A stretch of DNA of 26,363 bases from a virus, in IMG/VR virus record IMGVR_UViG_3300030106_005167, positions 1 through 26,363 of that record, one strand, 5' to 3'. The translations under genes were made by a program, and so were the position numbers. This document shows, piece after piece, positions 1-26,363 of the stretch (within the stretch, counting starts at the first letter, position 1; the number at the start of each line of letters is the position of its first letter). Below the pieces are notes generated by a model that was not told the DNA's origin, did no database searches, and saw only the letters and a program-made list of their open reading frames with translations.

Positions 1-1781
1 TTACAACCCTCTAGTATCTCTATACAAGAGTTGTCTTCAGTGTTAGCAAATTCGTTATAGTTAAACGCTAGAGAGTCTAGACATCCATACACTACTGGTA
101 TACAACTAAAATCTTCTGTGTTAGCTTCTTCGTTATAATTAAAAGCTTCAGGATCAGTGCAACCTAACACTGTAATAAAACAAGTACCATTGTCTACGTT
201 AGCTTGTGGGTCGTAATTATCAGCAACAGGATCCATGCAACCAAAGTATATGCAACTACCATCTTCTACATTAGCAGCAAAGTTATAGTTCCAAGCTGTA
301 TTATCCATACAACCAACTACTACAGCAACACATCCACCATCATCTACATTAGCTAATGAATCGTAATTAAAAGCTAATTCGTTTGTACATCCATATACTG
401 CTTCAATACAGCTACCGTCATCTGTGTTAGCTTCATCGTTATAATTTATTGCAGACTCTTCTAAGCAACCATATACCTTAGGTATACAGTAGTCGCCACA
501 AAAAGGTAGCGAGTGATATACGTGCCAAAAAGGTGCTTGATAAGGTTTTAAAGCGCCTTGACCATTGTTAGCAAAAGGGTATACACCACCTTGTAATGTA
601 ATGTTACCAGCAGAGTTAATAAGTCTAAACGAGTTGTGCATCGTTTGAAAAGCAACTTCAGCTGGTGGAGTTTGTGGATTAGCTATTTCAAAGTAATAAA
701 CCTTAACTGGTTTATCTGTCTCTAGTATTATATTAAACTCTTGAGAATAATAACCAGGTCCCATAGTGTAAGTGCCTAGTATACTATCTTCTTGTACTAC
801 ACCTATATAGCAATCACCCCATCCGTCGCCACCATCATCTTCAATTACAAGCTTGTATTCACATACAGGTATTATTTCATTTAACGTAGCAAGCGAGTCG
901 TAGTTAAAAGCGTTAGGGTTTATACAACCAAGTGTGTGTAGTGTTTCGCAGCTACCATCATCAAGGTTTGCTTGTGGGTTAAACTCTATGTAAGTATTAT
1001 TAGTACAACCCTCAACTACTGGTATATCACACTGCTGTAGCCATATGGGACCTGAATAAGCAGCGTTACCAAAGTTAGCCTGAGGTAGAGCCCATAAAGT
1101 ATCTAAACTACCACAAGGCTCTGCATCGCCTAGTACAATTATATTACCATCAGTTCCACTATTATATAAAGATCCAGCAACACCATCACCGTATGTGTCG
1201 CTAAGTATTATTTCAACTCCAGTTTCAGGTATACAAACATCATATATAATAGTTTGATTAGCCTCCTCATAAGTGTACTCTCCAGCTACCACATTATCAA
1301 CTGGTTGACCGTTAGATAAGTCTGTTATAATCCAACCTGTCTCACTTGGGAACTGATCAAGTGTTAGCTGTAAAATAATTTTGGCCTCTCCGTCAGAGCA
1401 ACTAACTCCAACACAGCTGCCATCGTCAACTTCTGCCCAAGGATTATAGTTTGGCGCTTCAGGTTCTGCACAACCAAACACAGGATAGTCACAACTACCG
1501 TCATCTATTGTAGCTTCAGGCACGAAGTTTAAAGCTAAAAAATCCATACAACCTAATATAGTATCTAATATAGGTATAGGACAATCACCTTCATCGTAGT
1601 TAAACTCTTCACAATTAAAATAAACAGGTATACCGTTATAAGTGTAAGCACCATCGTCACACCAGCCGTCACCTATCCAACCTGACACAGCTGTTACATC
1701 TGTGCCTAAACAATCATACAAAGTATCTTGAGCGTTTAAGCTACTAGATAAAATAATTAATAGTAAAAGTATTCTCTTCAT
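1..1781 (-). CDS. Secreted cysteine-rich repeat protein, Bacteroidota surface type (C-terminus beyond window)
   Basis: The frame is open from an ATG at 1779-1781 to the left edge, giving 593 codons with no stop. Residues 1-18 form a signal peptide: basic MKR, a run of Leu/Ile, then SLNA-Q as a likely signal peptidase I site. Residues 33-67 (WIGDGWCDDG, then NCEEFNYDEGDC) resemble an LNR/Notch-like calcium-binding motif. Ten copies of a 21-23 residue repeat of the pattern GC-x5-NYN/D-x2-AN-x-DDGSC follow at about 77-97, 103-123, 258-278, 285-307 (degenerate), 438-458, 464-484, 490-510, 514-534, 540-560 and 566-586; an eleventh starts at the edge. Between them lie two beta-type domains containing YGDG and GDGWGD. 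Such architectures are known from secreted Bacteroidota proteins; their presence in a phage late operon is unusual. It is the last gene seen in the minus-strand run, 11 bases after its neighbour. Role unknown: adhesion, surface modification of the infected cell, or a virion protein are all possible. Confidence 0.85.
   Translation of the reverse strand, partial: MKRILLLLIILSSSLNAQDTLYDCLGTDVTAVSGWIGDGWCDDGAYTYNGIPVYFNCEEFNYDEGDCPIPILDTILGCMDFLALNFVPEATIDDGSCDYPVFGCAEPEAPNYNPWAEVDDGSCVGVSCSDGEAKIILQLTLDQFPSETGWIITDLSNGQPVDNVVAGEYTYEEANQTIIYDVCIPETGVEIILSDTYGDGVAGSLYNSGTDGNIIVLGDAEPCGSLDTLWALPQANFGNAAYSGPIWLQQCDIPVVEGCTNNTYIEFNPQANLDDGSCETLHTLGCINPNAFNYDSLATLNEIIPVCEYKLVIEDDGGDGWGDCYIGVVQEDSILGTYTMGPGYYSQEFNIILETDKPVKVYYFEIANPQTPPAEVAFQTMHNSFRLINSAGNITLQGGVYPFANNGQGALKPYQAPFWHVYHSLPFCGDYCIPKVYGCLEESAINYNDEANTDDGSCIEAVYGCTNELAFNYDSLANVDDGGCVAVVVGCMDNTAWNYNFAANVEDGSCIYFGCMDPVADNYDPQANVDNGTCFITVLGCTDPEAFNYNEEANTEDFSCIPVVYGCLDSLAFNYNEFANTEDNSCIEILEGC
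3..470 (-). repeat. In-gene tandem repeat encoding GC...NY...DDGSC units
   Basis: Six complete tandem units plus the beginning of a seventh, spaced about 72-78 bases apart, each coding for a block with fixed Gly-Cys, Asn-Tyr, Ala-Asn and a closing Cys. The DNA copies have diverged (different codons for the same residues) while the protein pattern is kept, so the unit is under protein-level selection rather than being a recent slippage product. Confidence 0.85.
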
Positions 1782-1792
1782 ATATATTTAAT

Positions 1793-19945: not shown

Positions 19946-20209
19946 TTACTTTTTCTTATAGTTCATTTTAGCCGGAGACTTCTTCATCATCTTAGCCGGC
20001 GCATCTTTCTTCATTAACTTCATAGCAGCAGGCTTAAGCATCTTTGCTGGTGAAGCTAATATTTTATCTCTTAATTCTTTTGGTAAATTCTTTTGTTTAC
20101 CAACTAAAGCTTTTTTAGCAGGAGATTTTTTCATCATTTTTGCTGGGGCTTTTTTAGCCATTTTTGCCGGTGATTTTTTCATCATCTTGGCAGGAGCTTT
20201 TTTCATCAT
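19946..20209 (-). CDS. SPAK-repeat lysine-rich protein, histone-H1-tail-like
   Basis: 87 residues made almost wholly of Lys, Ala, Met and Pro. Units of KK(A/S)PAKM(M/A) occur seven to eight times (at the N-terminus, around residues 52-57, and at 70-82), interrupted once by VGKQKNLPKELRDKILAS. Ser/Thr-Pro-x-Lys motifs of this kind are known from histone H1 and sperm-histone tails, where they bind the DNA minor groove; here the order is Ser-Pro-Ala-Lys. A role in DNA compaction, or as an internal head protein, is inferred. The start overlaps the PAP2 gene stop by 4 bases, and the two starts ATG ATG are adjacent. Confidence 0.7.
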   Translation of the reverse strand: MMKKAPAKMMKKSPAKMAKKAPAKMMKKSPAKKALVGKQKNLPKELRDKILASPAKMLKPAAMKLMKKDAPAKMMKKSPAKMNYKKK

Positions 20210-21072
20210 GATTCTTTTTGTTTGATGTGTTTGTACATTGATTTTCCTAGGAGCTCACCAAATTTACTATCACTCTTATAGTGGGCGTGAGCAACTCTCC
20301 TACTATAAGATATTTTTTTAGCTAACTTTTTAAAAGCGCTTTTATGTCTAGGGTATTTATCGCCTAATCTTAGGCCTATTAAAAACCCTTGAGCTGAATG
20401 ACCTGACGGATATGAAGCTGTTTTCATAGAGTCCATCTCTATGTCTTGCATAGGTATGTTACTTTTCTCAGCTACAACTTTAGGTCTAGGTCTATCAAAA
20501 TGTTTTTTAAGTTCTAGTATTATAGGCGCAGACTCTCTTATTAAGTCTTCAGCTATTTCAATATCATAGTTCTTTATACCTTTTCTTTTAGCTAGCATTT
20601 TAAATGCACTAGCTATATCGTCGTGATCTTTAACAAACTTTTTATTTAAAGGTATTTTATTTAACTCTTTTACTTCGAGCATAGTGTTAAAAGAATTATT
20701 ACTTGGTGGGCGCATTTTTTTAAACGGAGAAGATTTAAAGTCTTTAAAAAACTTATTATTTATAGCTTCGTTAGCTTCTTGTTCCCATGGAAATACATTG
20801 CTACCTTCAGCGTAGAACTTACCGTTATATTTTATCTTGCCGTCTTTTCTTTTGTACTTCTTACCTTTGTACTCTACATGATCATCAGTATAATCTAGCA
20901 CACCGTTCTTCATTTGCTTTGCGTGAAAACCTTCGTGCTCTAAAACTTCTTTCTCTAGTTTACTGCCAGGCTTAACAGACTTATCTATAAAAACGCTACC
21001 GTCTTTATTAGCTTCGCCTAATACGCCTTTGTCTAAAGTTTTTCTAAGTACTGGTGTGCCTTTGCTTATCAT
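20206..21072 (-). CDS. Fusion: HExxH metallopeptidase-like domain + PAP2-type phosphatase
   Basis: 288 residues with two parts. In residues ~1-110, VLEHEGFHAKQ holds HEGFH (46-50), a zinc-binding HExxH motif, followed by DDHVEYKGKKYKR and FPWEQEANEA, where Glu97 or Glu99 could be the third ligand; I recall similar HE..H..Q....YDD..V.WKGK.Y...PWE.EA proteins in phages. Residues ~125-288 carry all three signatures of the PAP2/acid phosphatase-haloperoxidase superfamily: K189-x6-R196-P197, PSGH at 222-225, and SR-x5-H264-x3-D268. No membrane helices are seen, so it is nearer soluble class A acid phosphatases than integral lipid phosphatases. A KSSPFKKMRPPS linker (113-124) separates the halves. 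Possible roles are envelope lipid or nucleotide phosphate removal plus cleavage of a wall or virion protein; substrates unknown. Confidence 0.8.
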   Translation of the reverse strand: MISKGTPVLRKTLDKGVLGEANKDGSVFIDKSVKPGSKLEKEVLEHEGFHAKQMKNGVLDYTDDHVEYKGKKYKRKDGKIKYNGKFYAEGSNVFPWEQEANEAINNKFFKDFKSSPFKKMRPPSNNSFNTMLEVKELNKIPLNKKFVKDHDDIASAFKMLAKRKGIKNYDIEIAEDLIRESAPIILELKKHFDRPRPKVVAEKSNIPMQDIEMDSMKTASYPSGHSAQGFLIGLRLGDKYPRHKSAFKKLAKKISYSRRVAHAHYKSDSKFGELLGKSMYKHIKQKES

Positions 21073-21509
21073 CTGTCTTTGTCTTTAATCATATCGTCAA
21101 TAGCCTTGTTCATAACCTTGTCTGTATAAGACTTGTTATTAAAGTAAGGATTTTTAATTGAAACAGGTATATCTTCTTCGCCTAGCAAAATTCTGTATAT
21201 CCTATTTATCATATGATTACACTTAAATGACGTTTTGTAAACTGCATACTTCATTGTTGTACGATTTCTTTCTCGCCAAACGTCTATCCAACCATCTCTA
21301 CGTAGTCTCTCCCACCTATGCTTATCCCATGAATAAGCGTATACTCCGTTAATAAATTCATCTCTTGTGAATCTATTTAAACAGTTTAAGTATATTAATA
21401 ATTCAAGGTCAGCGTCTTTTATGTTATTAGCCTTACATATCCACTTGCGTACTATTCTATAATACTTAAATAGCTGTATTTGTTTTATGTCATCAGCTGT
21501 TATCCTCAT
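21069..21509 (-). CDS. Winged-helix-like DNA-binding protein (putative)
   Basis: 146 residues. A helical N-terminus (DDIKQIQLFKYYRIVRKWIC) leads to LELLIYLNCLNRFTRDEFIN and then WERLRRDGWIDVWRERNR, followed by TTMKYAVYKTSFKCNHMINR and IYRILLGEEDIPVS. The helix - helix - (R)RDGWI - strand order with a basic turn resembles MarR-type winged helices, and I recognise the LRRDGWI..YK.SFKC.HM..RIYR..LGEE pattern from marine phages. A transcription regulator acting on the phage operons is a plausible inference. It overlaps groES by 17 bases and the PAP2 fusion gene by 4. Confidence 0.6.
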   Translation of the reverse strand: MRITADDIKQIQLFKYYRIVRKWICKANNIKDADLELLIYLNCLNRFTRDEFINGVYAYSWDKHRWERLRRDGWIDVWRERNRTTMKYAVYKTSFKCNHMINRIYRILLGEEDIPVSIKNPYFNNKSYTDKVMNKAIDDMIKDKDR

Positions 21510-21765
21510 CTACTAATACTACATCTCTTAAACGTATAACTCTATACATTACATCATCGTACTCTATATCATGACCAGCATGTTGATCATACATTACTAT
21601 GCTGTTAATCTTTATTAGCTCAGCTAAGTTACCAACAGATACTACTTTAGCTTTTTTATACCTGTTGTCTACATCTGTATCATCAGTAAGCAAAAGACCA
21701 CCTGATGTAGTCTTCTGCTCTTTTATTTTCTCTATAACTATATAATCGTTAACTGCTTTCATCAT
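21493..21765 (-). CDS. groES: Co-chaperonin GroES
   Basis: 90 residues, typical Cpn10 length. It reads KAVNDYIVIEKIKEQKTTSG, with GGLLL at the mobile loop (GGIVL in bacterial GroES), which contacts the GroEL apical domain. KKAKVVSVGN, an IKINSIVMYDQHAGH segment and the closing VMYRVIRLRDVVLV correspond to the standard beta barrel. There are two adjacent ATG codons (MMKAV). It caps the folding chamber of the GroEL encoded two genes upstream. The stop of the oxygenase-like gene overlaps its start (ATGA), so translation is probably coupled. Confidence 0.92.
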   Translation of the reverse strand: MMKAVNDYIVIEKIKEQKTTSGGLLLTDDTDVDNRYKKAKVVSVGNLAELIKINSIVMYDQHAGHDIEYDDVMYRVIRLRDVVLVDEDNS

Positions 21766-22175
21766 ATGAAAATTAAATAAACTATTCTATTGTCACTTCC
21801 TTTAACCATGTGTTCTACATCAGAACTGTGCGCTACCATGTCGTACTTAAACCTAATAACTTCTTCGTCTTTATAGTAAACAACGTCTTCTTCTTTTTTA
21901 GAGTCTATAAGTATAGAAGCACCAACTTGACACCAAGCCATGTGGTTATTAGAGCCAGTATCTACATGCCATTTATGGCCTTCGTTACTTGTTTTTTCAA
22001 GCACGCAATAAGAGTTTTTATTTACAGTAAAATTAAAATCATTTTTTATTATGCTCAGTATTTTACTTATAACTGGTAAGTCTATATTTTCTAATATATT
22101 AACTTTCTTATATCCTAATTCTATTAATTCTAAAGCATCTTTACTATTTATAGCTTGTTTATAAAGCTTTCTCAT
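21762..22175 (-). CDS. 2-oxoglutarate/Fe(II) oxygenase-like protein
   Basis: 137 residues. The facial-triad pattern is visible: His70-x-Asp72 (HKWHVDTGSNNHMAWCQVG), distal His122 (SSDVEHMV) and Arg130 eight residues later (GSDNRIVYLIFI), as expected for iron and 2-oxoglutarate binding in prolyl-hydroxylase-type enzymes. The strands between them (ASILIDSKKEEDVVYY) fit a short double-stranded beta helix. The N-terminal ~60 residues are helical. Substrate unknown; such small enzymes are common in marine phages. It overlaps groEL by 17 bases and groES by 4, so it is embedded in the chaperonin cassette, but a link with folding is only inference from position. Confidence 0.75.
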   Translation of the reverse strand: MRKLYKQAINSKDALELIELGYKKVNILENIDLPVISKILSIIKNDFNFTVNKNSYCVLEKTSNEGHKWHVDTGSNNHMAWCQVGASILIDSKKEEDVVYYKDEEVIRFKYDMVAHSSDVEHMVKGSDNRIVYLIFI

Positions 22176-23730
22176 TAATTCTAACGTTTGATATTACACA
22201 ATCAGCTGACATAATAGTTAAAGCTACAGACACAGCATTTTTTAACGCCGTCTTAGTTACTAAAACCGGATCTATAATACCAGCTTCAACCATATCAACG
22301 CATTCACCTGTTATAGCGTTAACACCTGTACCAATAGCACAATCACAGTCTCTACTACATGTAAAGCCTGAGTTAGCCAATATAGTTTCATATGGAGACT
22401 TAATGGCTTGTAGCAAAACATCACCAGCTTCGCTGGTCAAAATTTTTTCCGATGCGTTAAGTAATGCAACACCTCCACCCGGGACAATACCTTCTTGCAG
22501 TGCTGCTTTAGTAGCATATATAGCGTCTTCAACACGATCTTTCTTTTCTTTAAGTTCAACTTTAGAGTTAGCACCAACTCTTATTATACCTACGTTACCA
22601 GATAAAGTAGCTAACCTATCTTCTAGTTTCTTTTTAATAAACCCGTTTTTCTCTTCAGCTATTTTATTTTTAACTTCTACTATACGCTGCATTACATCAT
22701 TAGTAGTACAGTCCATAGTTATAGTAGTGTTCTTGTCATCAGTTACAGCAAAGTCAACTTCACCTAAGTGCTCAGGTGTTATTAAGTCTAGATCATCACC
22801 TAGTTCTTCGTTAATAACCGTACAACCAGTTAGTATAGCTAAATCTTCTATAGCATCTTTCTTAGTAGGACCAAAGCCAGGTGGATCAACTATGTTAACC
22901 TTAATATTACCCTTAACTTTATTCATAAGCAGTGCAGATTTAACTTGCTGTGATACCGGTGCTACTATAAGTAAAGATCTACCTTGCTTAATAACATGCT
23001 CAAGTACTCCTTGTATCTTACGTATGTTAGGTATTTCAGACGATACCGCTAGTATATACGGGTTATCTAGTTCACATATGTGTTTATCTGTGTTAGTAAC
23101 AAAATGTAGCGACGTAAGCCCGCAGTCTATCTGCGCACCATCTACAATATCAACGTAAGTGTCTTCAGATTCGCTCTCTTCCATCAACACTACGCCGTTT
23201 TTACCTACTTTTTCGTAAGCTTCTGCGATAATTTGCCCTAATTCAGCGTCATTATTGCAAGATATAGCAGCAACAGCCTTAAGCATATCGCCTTTAACGT
23301 CTAATGCTGTAGAATCTAGGTGATTTAACACCTCTTCTAAGCAACCATTAACCCCATCTTTGATTTGTCTGATTGATAATCCTGCAGCGACGGCAGAATC
23401 TATAGATTTTATGAGTGATTCAGCTAGGACGGTAGCAGTTGTAGTACCGTCACCAGCTTCTTTCACAGTATTTCTTGCAGCTTCCTTGATTAATGTTGCA
23501 CCCATATTCTCGACCGGATCAAATAAGACTACGCTTTCCGCAACGGTTACACCATCTTTTGTTATGACCGGTTTGCCTCGTCCATCTTCATACACTACGC
23601 ATCGACCTGACGCGCCTAACGTGGATTTAACGGCTTGTGACAACTTGTTAACTCCGGCAATTACTCTATTTTTTGCTTCATCACCGAAGTCAAGGTTCTT
23701 AACCAACTCGCTTGGTAAATTATATTCCAT
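22159..23730 (-). CDS. groEL: Chaperonin GroEL (60 kDa chaperonin)
   Basis: 523 residues against about 548 in E. coli. Equatorial ATPase motifs are intact: ITKDGVTVAESV (~56-67), AGDGTTTATVLAE (92-104), KDRVEDAIYATKAA with the catalytic Asp, and LQEGIVPGGGVALL. The apical part has SLLIVAPVSQQVKSALLMNK and VDPPGFGPTKKDAIEDLAIL. The C-terminal equatorial region has DMVEAGIIDPVLVTKTALKN. The protein ends VISNVRINEKAL and lacks the Gly-Gly-Met tail that lines the bacterial chamber. It probably forms the folding ring together with the phage GroES. Codon use and AT content match its neighbours, so acquisition was not recent. Phage-encoded GroEL is known but uncommon; here it is expressed with head genes, suggesting that a capsid or fibre protein is the client. 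Confidence 0.96.
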   Translation of the reverse strand: MEYNLPSELVKNLDFGDEAKNRVIAGVNKLSQAVKSTLGASGRCVVYEDGRGKPVITKDGVTVAESVVLFDPVENMGATLIKEAARNTVKEAGDGTTTATVLAESLIKSIDSAVAAGLSIRQIKDGVNGCLEEVLNHLDSTALDVKGDMLKAVAAISCNNDAELGQIIAEAYEKVGKNGVVLMEESESEDTYVDIVDGAQIDCGLTSLHFVTNTDKHICELDNPYILAVSSEIPNIRKIQGVLEHVIKQGRSLLIVAPVSQQVKSALLMNKVKGNIKVNIVDPPGFGPTKKDAIEDLAILTGCTVINEELGDDLDLITPEHLGEVDFAVTDDKNTTITMDCTTNDVMQRIVEVKNKIAEEKNGFIKKKLEDRLATLSGNVGIIRVGANSKVELKEKKDRVEDAIYATKAALQEGIVPGGGVALLNASEKILTSEAGDVLLQAIKSPYETILANSGFTCSRDCDCAIGTGVNAITGECVDMVEAGIIDPVLVTKTALKNAVSVALTIMSADCVISNVRINEKAL

Positions 23731-24623: not shown

Positions 24624-24962
24624 TATTATTTTTTTTAAGTTCGAACTATAACAGTATAATCACAGTTACTTTTCTTTTTTTAAAAGTGTGACACTAGCTA
24701 GTTACTAGATCCTTTATATAGGCTATTGTCATAGTTTTCTGTATTGCAAATTTTGGGGTAAAGTGTAGCCCCCCTCCCCTATACCGGCCCCGCCAAAAAC
24801 AAAAACGCATTTTATAACGCCAGCCCCCATATGCGGGTTTTTATATATATAGTATTTTATATTTGATATAACTAAATTTTATACGAACTAAATACGACTA
24901 TATATAGATAATATAAATGTAATTAAAATAAATAAATAACAAATAAATAAAATAAAATTATT
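24624..24962. other. Divergent intergenic region with C/G-rich block
   Basis: 339 bases separating the minus-strand run from the plus-strand genes, without a usable reading frame. 24624-24760 should hold the leader and promoter of the long minus-strand operon; no copy of the plus-strand 25-base element is present in that orientation and no convincing sigma-type promoter can be named. 24765-24836 is rich in C runs on the plus strand (6, 4, 4 and 5 C) and so in G runs on the minus strand, in strong contrast to the AT-rich flanks. After GCGGGTTTTT the sequence is nearly pure A/T and leads into the plus-strand promoter-like element. An origin, packaging site or G-quadruplex is possible but unproven. 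Confidence 0.6.
24890..24914 (+). promoter_or_regulatory. Promoter-like element copy 1, T7-promoter-like
   Basis: AAATACGA-N9-GATAATAT. The first 8 bases match 7 of 8 positions of the T7 promoter at -17 to -10, the N9 (CTATATATA) matches 6 of 9 of T7 CTCACTATA, and the following G aligns with +1. A start there would give a 56-base leader before the ATG at 24963. Preceded by another TACGA at 24882-24886. Confidence 0.6.
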
Positions 24963-25196
24963 ATGACAAAATCAAATTCTATTACAACTAAACGATTCGT
25001 TATCAGAAAATCATTAATCGGTACTAATACAGTTATTAGCTTCGTTAATAAAAATAATAAAACAGTATCGTATAATCACGACGAAGTATATAACAAGCAT
25101 AAAGCTCGATTCGATGCTATGAATTGCTTCGCAAAATATAAGTCGTATACTAATTCAAATAATATTCCAGCATTCTGTCGCGATTTACAAATCTAA
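24963..25196 (+). CDS. Small early-type protein, paralog of the gene at the right edge
   Basis: 77 residues. KRFVIRKSLIGTNTVISF, KTVSYNHDEVYNKHKA, AMNCFAKYKSYTNSNNIP and CRD align along almost the whole length with the gene starting at 26121 (KRFVVRQSLIG, KTITYSHDKAY, AMNCWEKYKSYTATNNIP, LRD). Soluble; beta strands followed by a helix and one conserved Cys. No known domain recognised. It is preceded by the 25-base promoter-like element and an A/T-only leader; the next copy of the element begins on its own stop codon. The duplication with its own regulatory element suggests a small expanding family of host-interaction genes. Confidence 0.75.
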   Translation: MTKSNSITTKRFVIRKSLIGTNTVISFVNKNNKTVSYNHDEVYNKHKARFDAMNCFAKYKSYTNSNNIPAFCRDLQI

Positions 25197-25218
25197 TACG
25201 ACGATGCTCAGATAATAT
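25194..25218 (+). promoter_or_regulatory. Promoter-like element copy 2, overlapping a stop codon
   Basis: TAATACGA-N9-GATAATAT. Its first 8 bases are identical to T7 promoter positions -17 to -10, with G at the +1 position; the N9 matches T7 poorly (2 of 9). The TAA stop of the 77-residue gene is the first three bases of the element. The implied leader to the ATG at 25245 is 34 bases. Confidence 0.5.
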
Positions 25219-25244
25219 TAATATAAACTAAAATAAATTAAATT

Positions 25245-25325
25245 ATGCAAAACGGTTACAACTACGAATTTACTGACGCAAACGGAAATCTAATTGCTAT
25301 ATTCAGACTTGTTCGACTAAAATAA
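25245..25325 (+). CDS. Very small ORF, 26 residues
   Basis: Reads MQNGYNYEFTDANGNLIAIF followed by RLVRLK and TAA. It begins after an AAATAAATTAAATT leader like those of the other plus-strand genes and lies downstream of a copy of the 25-base promoter-like element, which is the main reason to list it. Too short to judge by codon use; it could be a real micro-protein or a leader peptide. Confidence 0.45.
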   Translation: MQNGYNYEFTDANGNLIAIFRLVRLK

Positions 25326-25349
25326 TATTAACTAATTAAATAAATTACT

Positions 25350-25418
25350 ATGCTAGAAATTATATTTATCTCCGCTCTTCTTCTTCACTATAAATTAACT
25401 GAAGATAATTACAAGTAG
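25350..25418 (+). CDS. Very small ORF, 22 residues, hydrophobic N-terminus
   Basis: Reads MLEIIFISALLLHYKLTEDN then YK and TAG. The first 12 residues are hydrophobic, so it might be a membrane-inserted micropeptide. It starts after TTAAATAAATTACT, similar to the leaders of the other small genes, 24 bases after the preceding stop, with no promoter-like element of its own. Weak support. Confidence 0.3.
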   Translation: MLEIIFISALLLHYKLTEDNYK

Positions 25419-25485
25419 AGAGAAGTCGCGGAACTACTCTTAACTAAATTTTACTTATTAATAATTTATCCACTTTATACGAACT

Positions 25486-25510
25486 AAATACGAAGTTAAA
25501 TAGATAATAT
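25486..25510 (+). promoter_or_regulatory. Promoter-like element copy 3
   Basis: AAATACGA-N9-GATAATAT followed by ATTTGTAA. The upstream TTTATACGAACT is shared with copy 1, and TAACTAAATTTTA occurs ahead of both (24870 and 25441 regions), so the whole leader has been duplicated. The rest of the 137-base gap before the next gene (25419-25555) shows only a weak AGTAG/CTACT inverted repeat near 25415-25440. Confidence 0.6.
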
Positions 25511-25555
25511 ATTTGTAAATAAAATATAATATAACAACTTAAAAATTAATAAACT

Positions 25556-25813
25556 ATGTCTACTATTATTAAAACTAATTCTTCAAATAAAATTATTACT
25601 ATAAACAATAATAAATATATTCCATTTCAACTTCATCAACTTCCAAAAAATTATCAAGAAATAGAATTATCAAGTCAATTCAAATTAAACGGATTAGTTT
25701 ATATATTAGTCGACTCATTAGTTAATAATTTTACAACTAAAAAACAATTACTAAATAAATATAATTCTACATTAACTTCAAATAAAAATATTTCTTATAC
25801 TAAATCAAGATAA
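25556..25813 (+). CDS. Small Asn/Lys-rich protein, unknown
   Basis: 85 residues, very rich in Asn, Lys, Ile, Leu and Ser (MSTIIKTNSSNKIITINNNK; SSQFKLNGLVYILVDSLVNN). A short hydrophobic stretch LVYILVDSLV is not long enough for a clear membrane helix. It uses almost only A/T-ending codons, more extreme than the minus-strand genes. It has its own copy of the 25-base element 45 bases upstream and is followed after 2 bases by the next gene, so the two form one unit. No family recognised. Confidence 0.65.
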   Translation: MSTIIKTNSSNKIITINNNKYIPFQLHQLPKNYQEIELSSQFKLNGLVYILVDSLVNNFTTKKQLLNKYNSTLTSNKNISYTKSR

Positions 25814-25815
25814 TT

Positions 25816-26040
25816 ATGACTAAACAAAATACTAAAAAATATATTCGTACTAGAATACAAGAAGATACTATGAAGAATCTTGGTATCGCATTAGAAGCAC
25901 TATCAGAAGTGCATAACGAAGAGCACTACTATAATCACGAGTTATCTAACGCTTGTCACGAACTTCGAATGAAGTTAATACCTATGATACAAGAGTGTCA
26001 TGACGAGAAAAATAAATTCAAGTCAGTACTTGATGATTAA
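25816..26040 (+). CDS. Small helical protein, unknown
   Basis: 74 residues, predicted nearly all helical and charged: KKYIRTRIQEDTMKNLGIAL, EALSEVHNEEHYYNHELSNA, CHELRMKLIPMIQECHDEKN. Many His (six) and Glu and two Cys stand out. The His/Cys positions (for example CHELR and ECHDEK) might bind metal, but no established motif fits. It is co-transcribed with the preceding gene (2-base gap); the next promoter-like element begins 9 bases after its stop. Confidence 0.65.
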   Translation: MTKQNTKKYIRTRIQEDTMKNLGIALEALSEVHNEEHYYNHELSNACHELRMKLIPMIQECHDEKNKFKSVLDD

Positions 26041-26049
26041 TTACAAATT

Positions 26050-26074
26050 AAATACGAATCACTACGGATAATAT
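26050..26074 (+). promoter_or_regulatory. Promoter-like element copy 4
   Basis: AAATACGA-N9-GATAATAT, where the N9 (ATCACTACG) shares TCACTA with the T7 promoter in register and G lies at the +1 position. The implied leader to the ATG at 26121 is 54 bases, close to the 53-56 bases of copies 1 and 3. Confidence 0.6.
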
Positions 26075-26120
26075 ATACGTAATGCAACGAAATAAATTAT
26101 AAACTATAAATTAAATAACT

Positions 26121-26363
26121 ATGTCAAATTTACTTAAATCAAAAAGATTTGTCGTTCGACAATCACTAATCGGTAAAGATACTAATGTTGAAGTATCATT
26201 TAAAAACGGTAAAACTATTACCTACTCACACGATAAAGCGTATGAGATTATGAAAACAGCTCTCGAAGCAATGAACTGCTGGGAAAAATACAAGTCGTAC
26301 ACAGCGACTAATAATATACCAAAAGTTCTTCGTGATACTGACGCAGTAATATCTTCTGAAGAT
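26121..26363 (+). CDS. Paralog of the 24963-25196 gene (partial, runs off right edge)
   Basis: 81 codons are visible with no stop. KRFVVRQSLIGKDTNVEVSF, KTITYSHDKAYEIM, AMNCWEKYKSYTATNNIP and LRDTD match the 77-residue gene 1.1 kb upstream over its full length; the C-terminus here is longer (DAVISSED and beyond). The Cys in AMNC and the KYKSYT block are invariant. Codon use is less AT-extreme than in the 25556 gene. It is preceded by its own promoter-like element. Function unknown. Confidence 0.7.
   Translation, partial: MSNLLKSKRFVVRQSLIGKDTNVEVSFKNGKTITYSHDKAYEIMKTALEAMNCWEKYKSYTATNNIPKVLRDTDAVISSED

Follow-up and report, generated by a model that had tools for sequence, protein, structure and literature searches.

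A candidate phage-specific promoter element and an accompanying sigma-70-family gene in podoviruses of Bacteroidota

In phages phiEco32 and 7-11, the phage-encoded sigma factors gp36 and gp47, respectively, serve middle and late genes, structural ones included, and the promoters of phage 7-11 are bipartite, with the form GTAAtg-16-aCTA (PMC8948821). The repeated element described here, found in a 26,363-nt stretch of viral DNA (the window), is the same kind of device, differing in its motif, its gene targets and its longer upstream block. The shared features are a podovirus, a phage-encoded sigma-70 relative, repeated phage-specific promoters, a start 6-9 nt from the element and the presumed use of host core RNA polymerase, whereas the copies here stand before small non-structural genes, and sometimes the sigma gene, have a motif and spacing of their own with a block reaching to -22, and approximately one-fifth of their starts look leaderless. 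In Flavobacterium, the sigma-A promoter has the box TAnnTTTG at -12 to -5, and leaderless mRNAs account for 5.5% in F. psychrophilum (PMC9723704). The placing of the box with respect to the predicted start and the existence of leaderless mRNAs are points of likeness, but the -10 sequence here is different and does not match TAnnTTTG, and it is preceded by a long upstream block. T4 middle promoters (a MotA box at -30 plus a -10) and PhoB-dependent pho-box promoters have an upstream box near the -10 in place of the normal -35, and pho boxes are direct repeats with an 11-bp period. The present element likewise has an upstream box close to its -10 and the 11-bp repeat period of pho boxes, but no MotA or PhoB homologue was identified and it is accompanied by a sigma gene. 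Within the open literature searched, nothing describing this system was found.

Four copies beside a divergent region

The window, 26 kb long, comes from a Bacteroidota podovirus and represents part of its genome; the terminase and capsid protein match those of Flavobacterium elemo phages, Cellulophaga phages and a Manatee Spring genome. Its structural module lies on the minus strand and is separated by a divergent region (24624..24880) from a set of small plus-strand genes, before which the first-pass annotation had reported four copies of (A/T)AATACGA-N9-GATAATAT with fixed spacing. Exact search and shuffling confirmed this: there are exactly four copies, at 24890, 25194, 25486 and 26050, all on the plus strand and all with an N9 spacer, and no further core copies with up to two mismatches elsewhere in the 26,363-nt window. 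Exact cores arose in none of 1000 dinucleotide shuffles of the window and once in 5000 shuffles of the region 24800-26363.

Each predicted promoter comprises an upstream block, a left core block (TAATACGA in copy 2 and AAATACGA in the others), N9, GATAATAT and four further bases, the core being exact in every case. Copy 1 (24881..24919, plus strand) ends in AAAT with a predicted +1 at G24919 (PWM 43.7), copy 2 (25185..25223, plus) in TAAT with A25223 (PWM 33.8), copy 3 (25477..25515, plus) in ATTT with G25515 (PWM 39.9) and copy 4 (26041..26079, plus) in ATAC with G26079 (PWM 43.7). The distance from GATAATAT to the ATG of the next open reading frame (ORF) is 48, 26, 45 and 46 nt for copies 1-4, respectively. 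These frames, all on the plus strand, are a 77-aa ORF for a small protein, KRFVIRKSLIG... (24963..25196), with homologues in all four near-complete relatives near the start of the same gene block; a 26-aa ORF that may or may not be translated (25245..25325); an 85-aa ORF (25556..25813), followed by a 74-aa ORF as the second gene behind copy 3 (25816..26040); and, after copy 4, a paralogue of the 77-aa protein that is open at the window end (26121..26363). By eye, the C-terminal end of a host protein (L233, 1750-2796, minus strand) contains a stretch that resembles these paralogues of about 75 aa.

Many relatives keep a single-copy block that in the window lies at 24683-24765 (minus), the late strand of the divergent region; it consists of CACTWTACCCCWAWATTTATAATA and, after it, an inverted repeat, TGACA...TGTCA. 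Five pairs are predicted in the repeat, and these are nearly invariant, so covariation says little. The block is possibly a late promoter and leader, or an origin; Rfam gave no match anywhere in the window, this block included.

Element anatomy and predicted start

The core stands as first described, but that description was incomplete in its extent, as conservation also spans TTACAAACT upstream and AAAT[A/G] downstream. A logo built from 410 distinct sites reads TTACAAACTAAATACGA-N9-GATAATATAAAT[A/G], a conserved element of approximately 38 bp. Position 29 of this logo is A in 54% and G in 45% of sites, mostly with T before it and A-rich sequence after it; among the 335 sites where no ATG starts at this position, about 99% still have a purine. 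Of 370 sites, 49 have their first ORF start (at least 35 codons) exactly at position 29, and a further 39 have an in-frame ATG a short way upstream. An ORF start within 100 nt is present on the same strand at 328 of 370 sites and on the opposite strand at 25 of 384. Because of the purine following T at position 29 and the spike of start codons at the same place, the start is placed 7 nt past GATAAT and not at the G of GATAATAT. On sequence grounds, the element has the form of a repeated promoter with a -10 box and a start about 7 nt downstream; its geometry looks like that of a sigma promoter from which leaderless starts would be frequent. The first-pass annotation had offered as its second option that GATAAT might be a -10 box or that another phage-specific factor is involved, and the +1 purine and the start-codon spike favour this option. 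Repeated copies near start codons would also suit an operator bound by a repressor, or an element that works at the RNA level, rather than a promoter; however, the directionality, the +1 purine and the start codons lying exactly at offset 29 oppose such a function, which we regard as highly improbable.

The original first suggestion, transcription from the G of GATAATAT by a T7-like single-subunit RNA polymerase, appears equally improbable. The identity counts given for it were correct (left block 8/8 in copy 2 and 7/8 in the others; spacer 6/9 in copies 1 and 4), and both the identity of the eight bases TAATACGA with -17 to -10 of T7 class promoters (NC_001604) and the N9 spacing fixed in all copies speak in its favour. 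Against it, the N9 match to T7 averages 2.99 of 9 positions versus 2.62 of 9 expected from base composition, GGGAGA is absent from +1 to +6, the element does not constitute a 23-bp T7-type promoter and is longer than one, and the start-site signals lie 12 nt downstream of a T7-type start. Nor was a T7-like polymerase gene found in the motif-bearing relatives: Pfam RNA_pol matched in 0 of 12 motif-bearing records, with T7 itself found in the same search (E = 1e-110), and phmmer with the T7 enzyme gave no match in the four near-complete relatives. The T7-like suggestion is left unsupported, given the lack of a gene in relatives and the position of the start signals.

The upstream block is a direct repeat with an 11-bp period (TACRAACTAAATACGA) that ends 9 bp before the -10 and is conserved as far as -22; in the window, the 11-bp direct repeat TACGAACTAAATACGA is visible in copies 1 and 3. 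Copies within one genome share letters at positions -8, -2 and 16, but not at N9 positions 8 and 9. Such genome-specific letters would fit a phage-specific reader, as expected.

Distribution of the element and its sigma gene

Further copies were found when the search was extended to other viral records: an exact scan of the collection for AAATACGA-N9-GATAATAT returned at least 119 viral stretches. In 50 viral records searched, 35 of them picked from the motif-scan matches listed and 15 via TerL, copies were present in 42, a figure that is not a frequency as most records were picked by the motif itself; there were up to 12 copies in each, nearly all on one strand per genome, and the reversed pattern gave none in the same 50. 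The viral records used throughout are fragments or contigs that have not been curated. The terminase is 62-89% identical to that of the window in 40 of the 42 motif-bearing records. With one exception, the strong copies in the four near-complete relatives occupy the strand that does not carry the structural module and sit no more than a few kilobases from the divergent point. The earlier reading of a phage-specific promoter, repeated ahead of the small plus-strand genes that it serves, is supported, and the element is very probably the promoter of a large, mostly uncultured family of Bacteroidota viruses.

A host promoter class or host regulon was considered and rejected, the motif being nearly absent from host-family genomes. 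At one mismatch it occurs in 2 of 300 host-family chromosomes, and it was found in 3 of 19 genomes of one genus; at two mismatches, it occurs in 6 of 120 host-family genomes versus 4 genomes with reversed-pattern matches. Separately, exact copies were seen in a few Bacteroidota chromosome contigs (L230, L232, L233, L234 and L235), mostly with GATAATAG. Some of these chromosomal copies precede small secreted proteins; the copies are not conserved across the genus or the family.

All four near-complete relatives encode a protein of about 250 aa with sigma regions 2 and 4. This sigma-70-family protein is matched by Pfam Sigma70_r4 (3.6e-7) and r2 (1.7e-5), both over the cut-off, and by TIGR02937 (2e-16) and phrog_351 (1e-21). 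Its AlphaFold model has a mean pLDDT of 78, and the top Foldseek matches are sigma-A chains of initiation complexes, over the length of the model. The gene was found in 31 of 60 records searched and in more than 300 viral stretches in one scan, while isolates of the phage collection gave no close sigma, only weak matches of 22-31% identity. Among motif-bearing records, the gene is present in every one of the 25 that measure 53 kb or more; those that lack it do not exceed 52.4 kb and are probably fragments. The window itself ends upstream of the place where relatives carry the gene.

As an independent sample, 80 viral loci were chosen by the sigma gene alone and the motif matrix was scanned over their 1.15 Mb, yielding 381 copies on the sigma strand, 6 on the opposite strand and 0 in reversed sequence; the matrix had been trained on motif-scan sites and some sigma loci lie on the same contigs, so the two sets overlap in part. 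The picture was the same at matrix thresholds of 14, 18 and 22. Twelve of the 80 loci had no copy, all of them with less than 2.5 kb upstream of sigma. In 16 sister-group records chosen by terminase alone, no sigma was found, in a search with no positive control of its own but with a closely similar profile having worked elsewhere, and the motif gave two weak matches, no more than in reversed controls. Both sigma and motif are missing from the isolates elemoE, Manatee, Panino and phi38:1. Promoter and sigma are hence present together in the relatives and absent together from the sister groups. What links sigma to the motif is co-occurrence, strand and proximity, and other genes of the block also co-occur with the motif, above all that for an adjacent 206-aa protein with a C-terminal helix-turn-helix (HTH), which lies beside sigma in 79 of the 80 loci (e.g. 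L223:2349-2966 and relatives). In Mantel comparisons of motif dialect with protein, the correlation was similar for sigma, the HTH neighbour and Erf, and an N9 control also correlated; the dialects do not single out sigma among the phage proteins compared.

Candidate readers of the element

We consider it likely that the elements are read by host core RNA polymerase together with the phage-encoded sigma-70-family factor. The promoter geometry, the presence of sigma in relatives and the joint presence and absence are points in favour that come from sequence; from these we infer that this sigma reads these sites, that the phage of the window carries it and when it would act. Under this proposal, GATAATAT would be the -10 box at -12 to -5, in the same place as the host TAnnTTTG box, and TTACAAACTAAATACGA an extended -35/spacer block at -38 to -22. 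The sigma would redirect host RNA polymerase to start at the purine 7 nt after GATAAT (24919, 25223, 25515 and 26079), and the products would be leaderless mRNAs, or mRNAs with short A-rich leaders, for small non-structural genes encoded on the other strand from the structural module. In relatives the sigma gene lies downstream of the copies on the same strand and sometimes under a copy of its own, for which reason the set is probably a self-amplifying delayed-early or middle class. By offset arithmetic, the copy nearest sigma in L303 and L341 puts the predicted +1 on the start codon of sigma, which suggests self-activation. No enrichment of a host-type promoter, as a source of the first sigma, was found in the divergent region.

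The block, in reaching -22, comes nearer to the -10 than the place that sigma region 4 normally contacts, which counts against a reading by sigma. As the block reaches -22 and holds an 11-bp direct repeat, a second DNA-binding protein is a serious alternative. One possible, though rather unlikely, arrangement is a two-protein system in which sigma acts jointly with the neighbouring 206-aa HTH protein on a single long bipartite site, and the two drive the leaderless early genes, together with sigma, from the start of infection. The -10 would then be recognised by sigma region 2, and contact with the direct-repeat block (-38 to -22) would fall to the partner or to a region 4 in an unusual position; the first sigma would need to arrive in the virion or come from leaky expression.

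Alternatively, host RNA polymerase with a host sigma could be assisted by a DNA-binding activator, e.g. the 206-aa HTH protein, sitting on an upstream box that replaces the -35 as pho boxes or T4 MotA boxes do, in which case the phage sigma would serve other genes. The 11-bp direct repeat in copies 1 and 3, conservation to -22 and the well-predicted fold of a protein that adjoins sigma so regularly fit this arrangement, which would also spare sigma from making its own first transcript. However, GATAATAT departs from the host box, TAnnTTTG (PMC9723704), near-absence of the motif from host-family chromosomes means that no host regulon uses it, and the HTH protein, although its fold is confidently predicted, had no PDB match below E = 0.001. 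We regard such an activator as unlikely.

The start problem of the sigma would likewise be solved if the sites were early promoters, active from the first minute, for a virion-packaged giant RNA polymerase of the crAss-like or N4-like kind, and the virion modules of these podoviruses do include proteins of 2,200 to 3,800 residues. The DFDxD motif is absent from these giant proteins (a single DMDID, in a G001 protein, is unshared), neither of the two scanned matched an RNA polymerase family, only the C-terminal part of the last giant protein is conserved, and the element has sigma-type geometry. The giant proteins were rejected as polymerase on the missing DFDxD and the lack of a family match in the two scanned, and a reader of this kind is very unlikely.

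With the phage sigma as the preferred reader, the element offers a testable transcription programme, with start sites predicted to the base, for common and almost uncultured Bacteroidota podoviruses. The motif marks regulated genes in new genomes and may serve as a phage-specific promoter in Bacteroidota, organisms in which standard promoters fail. A further question is how the first molecules of a phage sigma that belongs to its own regulon are synthesized.

Several further features were noted in the window. On inspection by eye, an open-ended ORF at 1-1782 (minus strand) resembles a secreted, cysteine-rich protein with DDGSC repeats. A lysine-rich repeat protein (APAKMMKKSPAKM) is encoded at 19946-20209 by a gene with a 24-bp tandem repeat. 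At 20206-21072, a phage protein has a PAP2-superfamily domain (Pfam 1.5e-7). A phage-encoded GroEL (22159-23730) and a probable GroES (21493-21765) are both kept in relatives.
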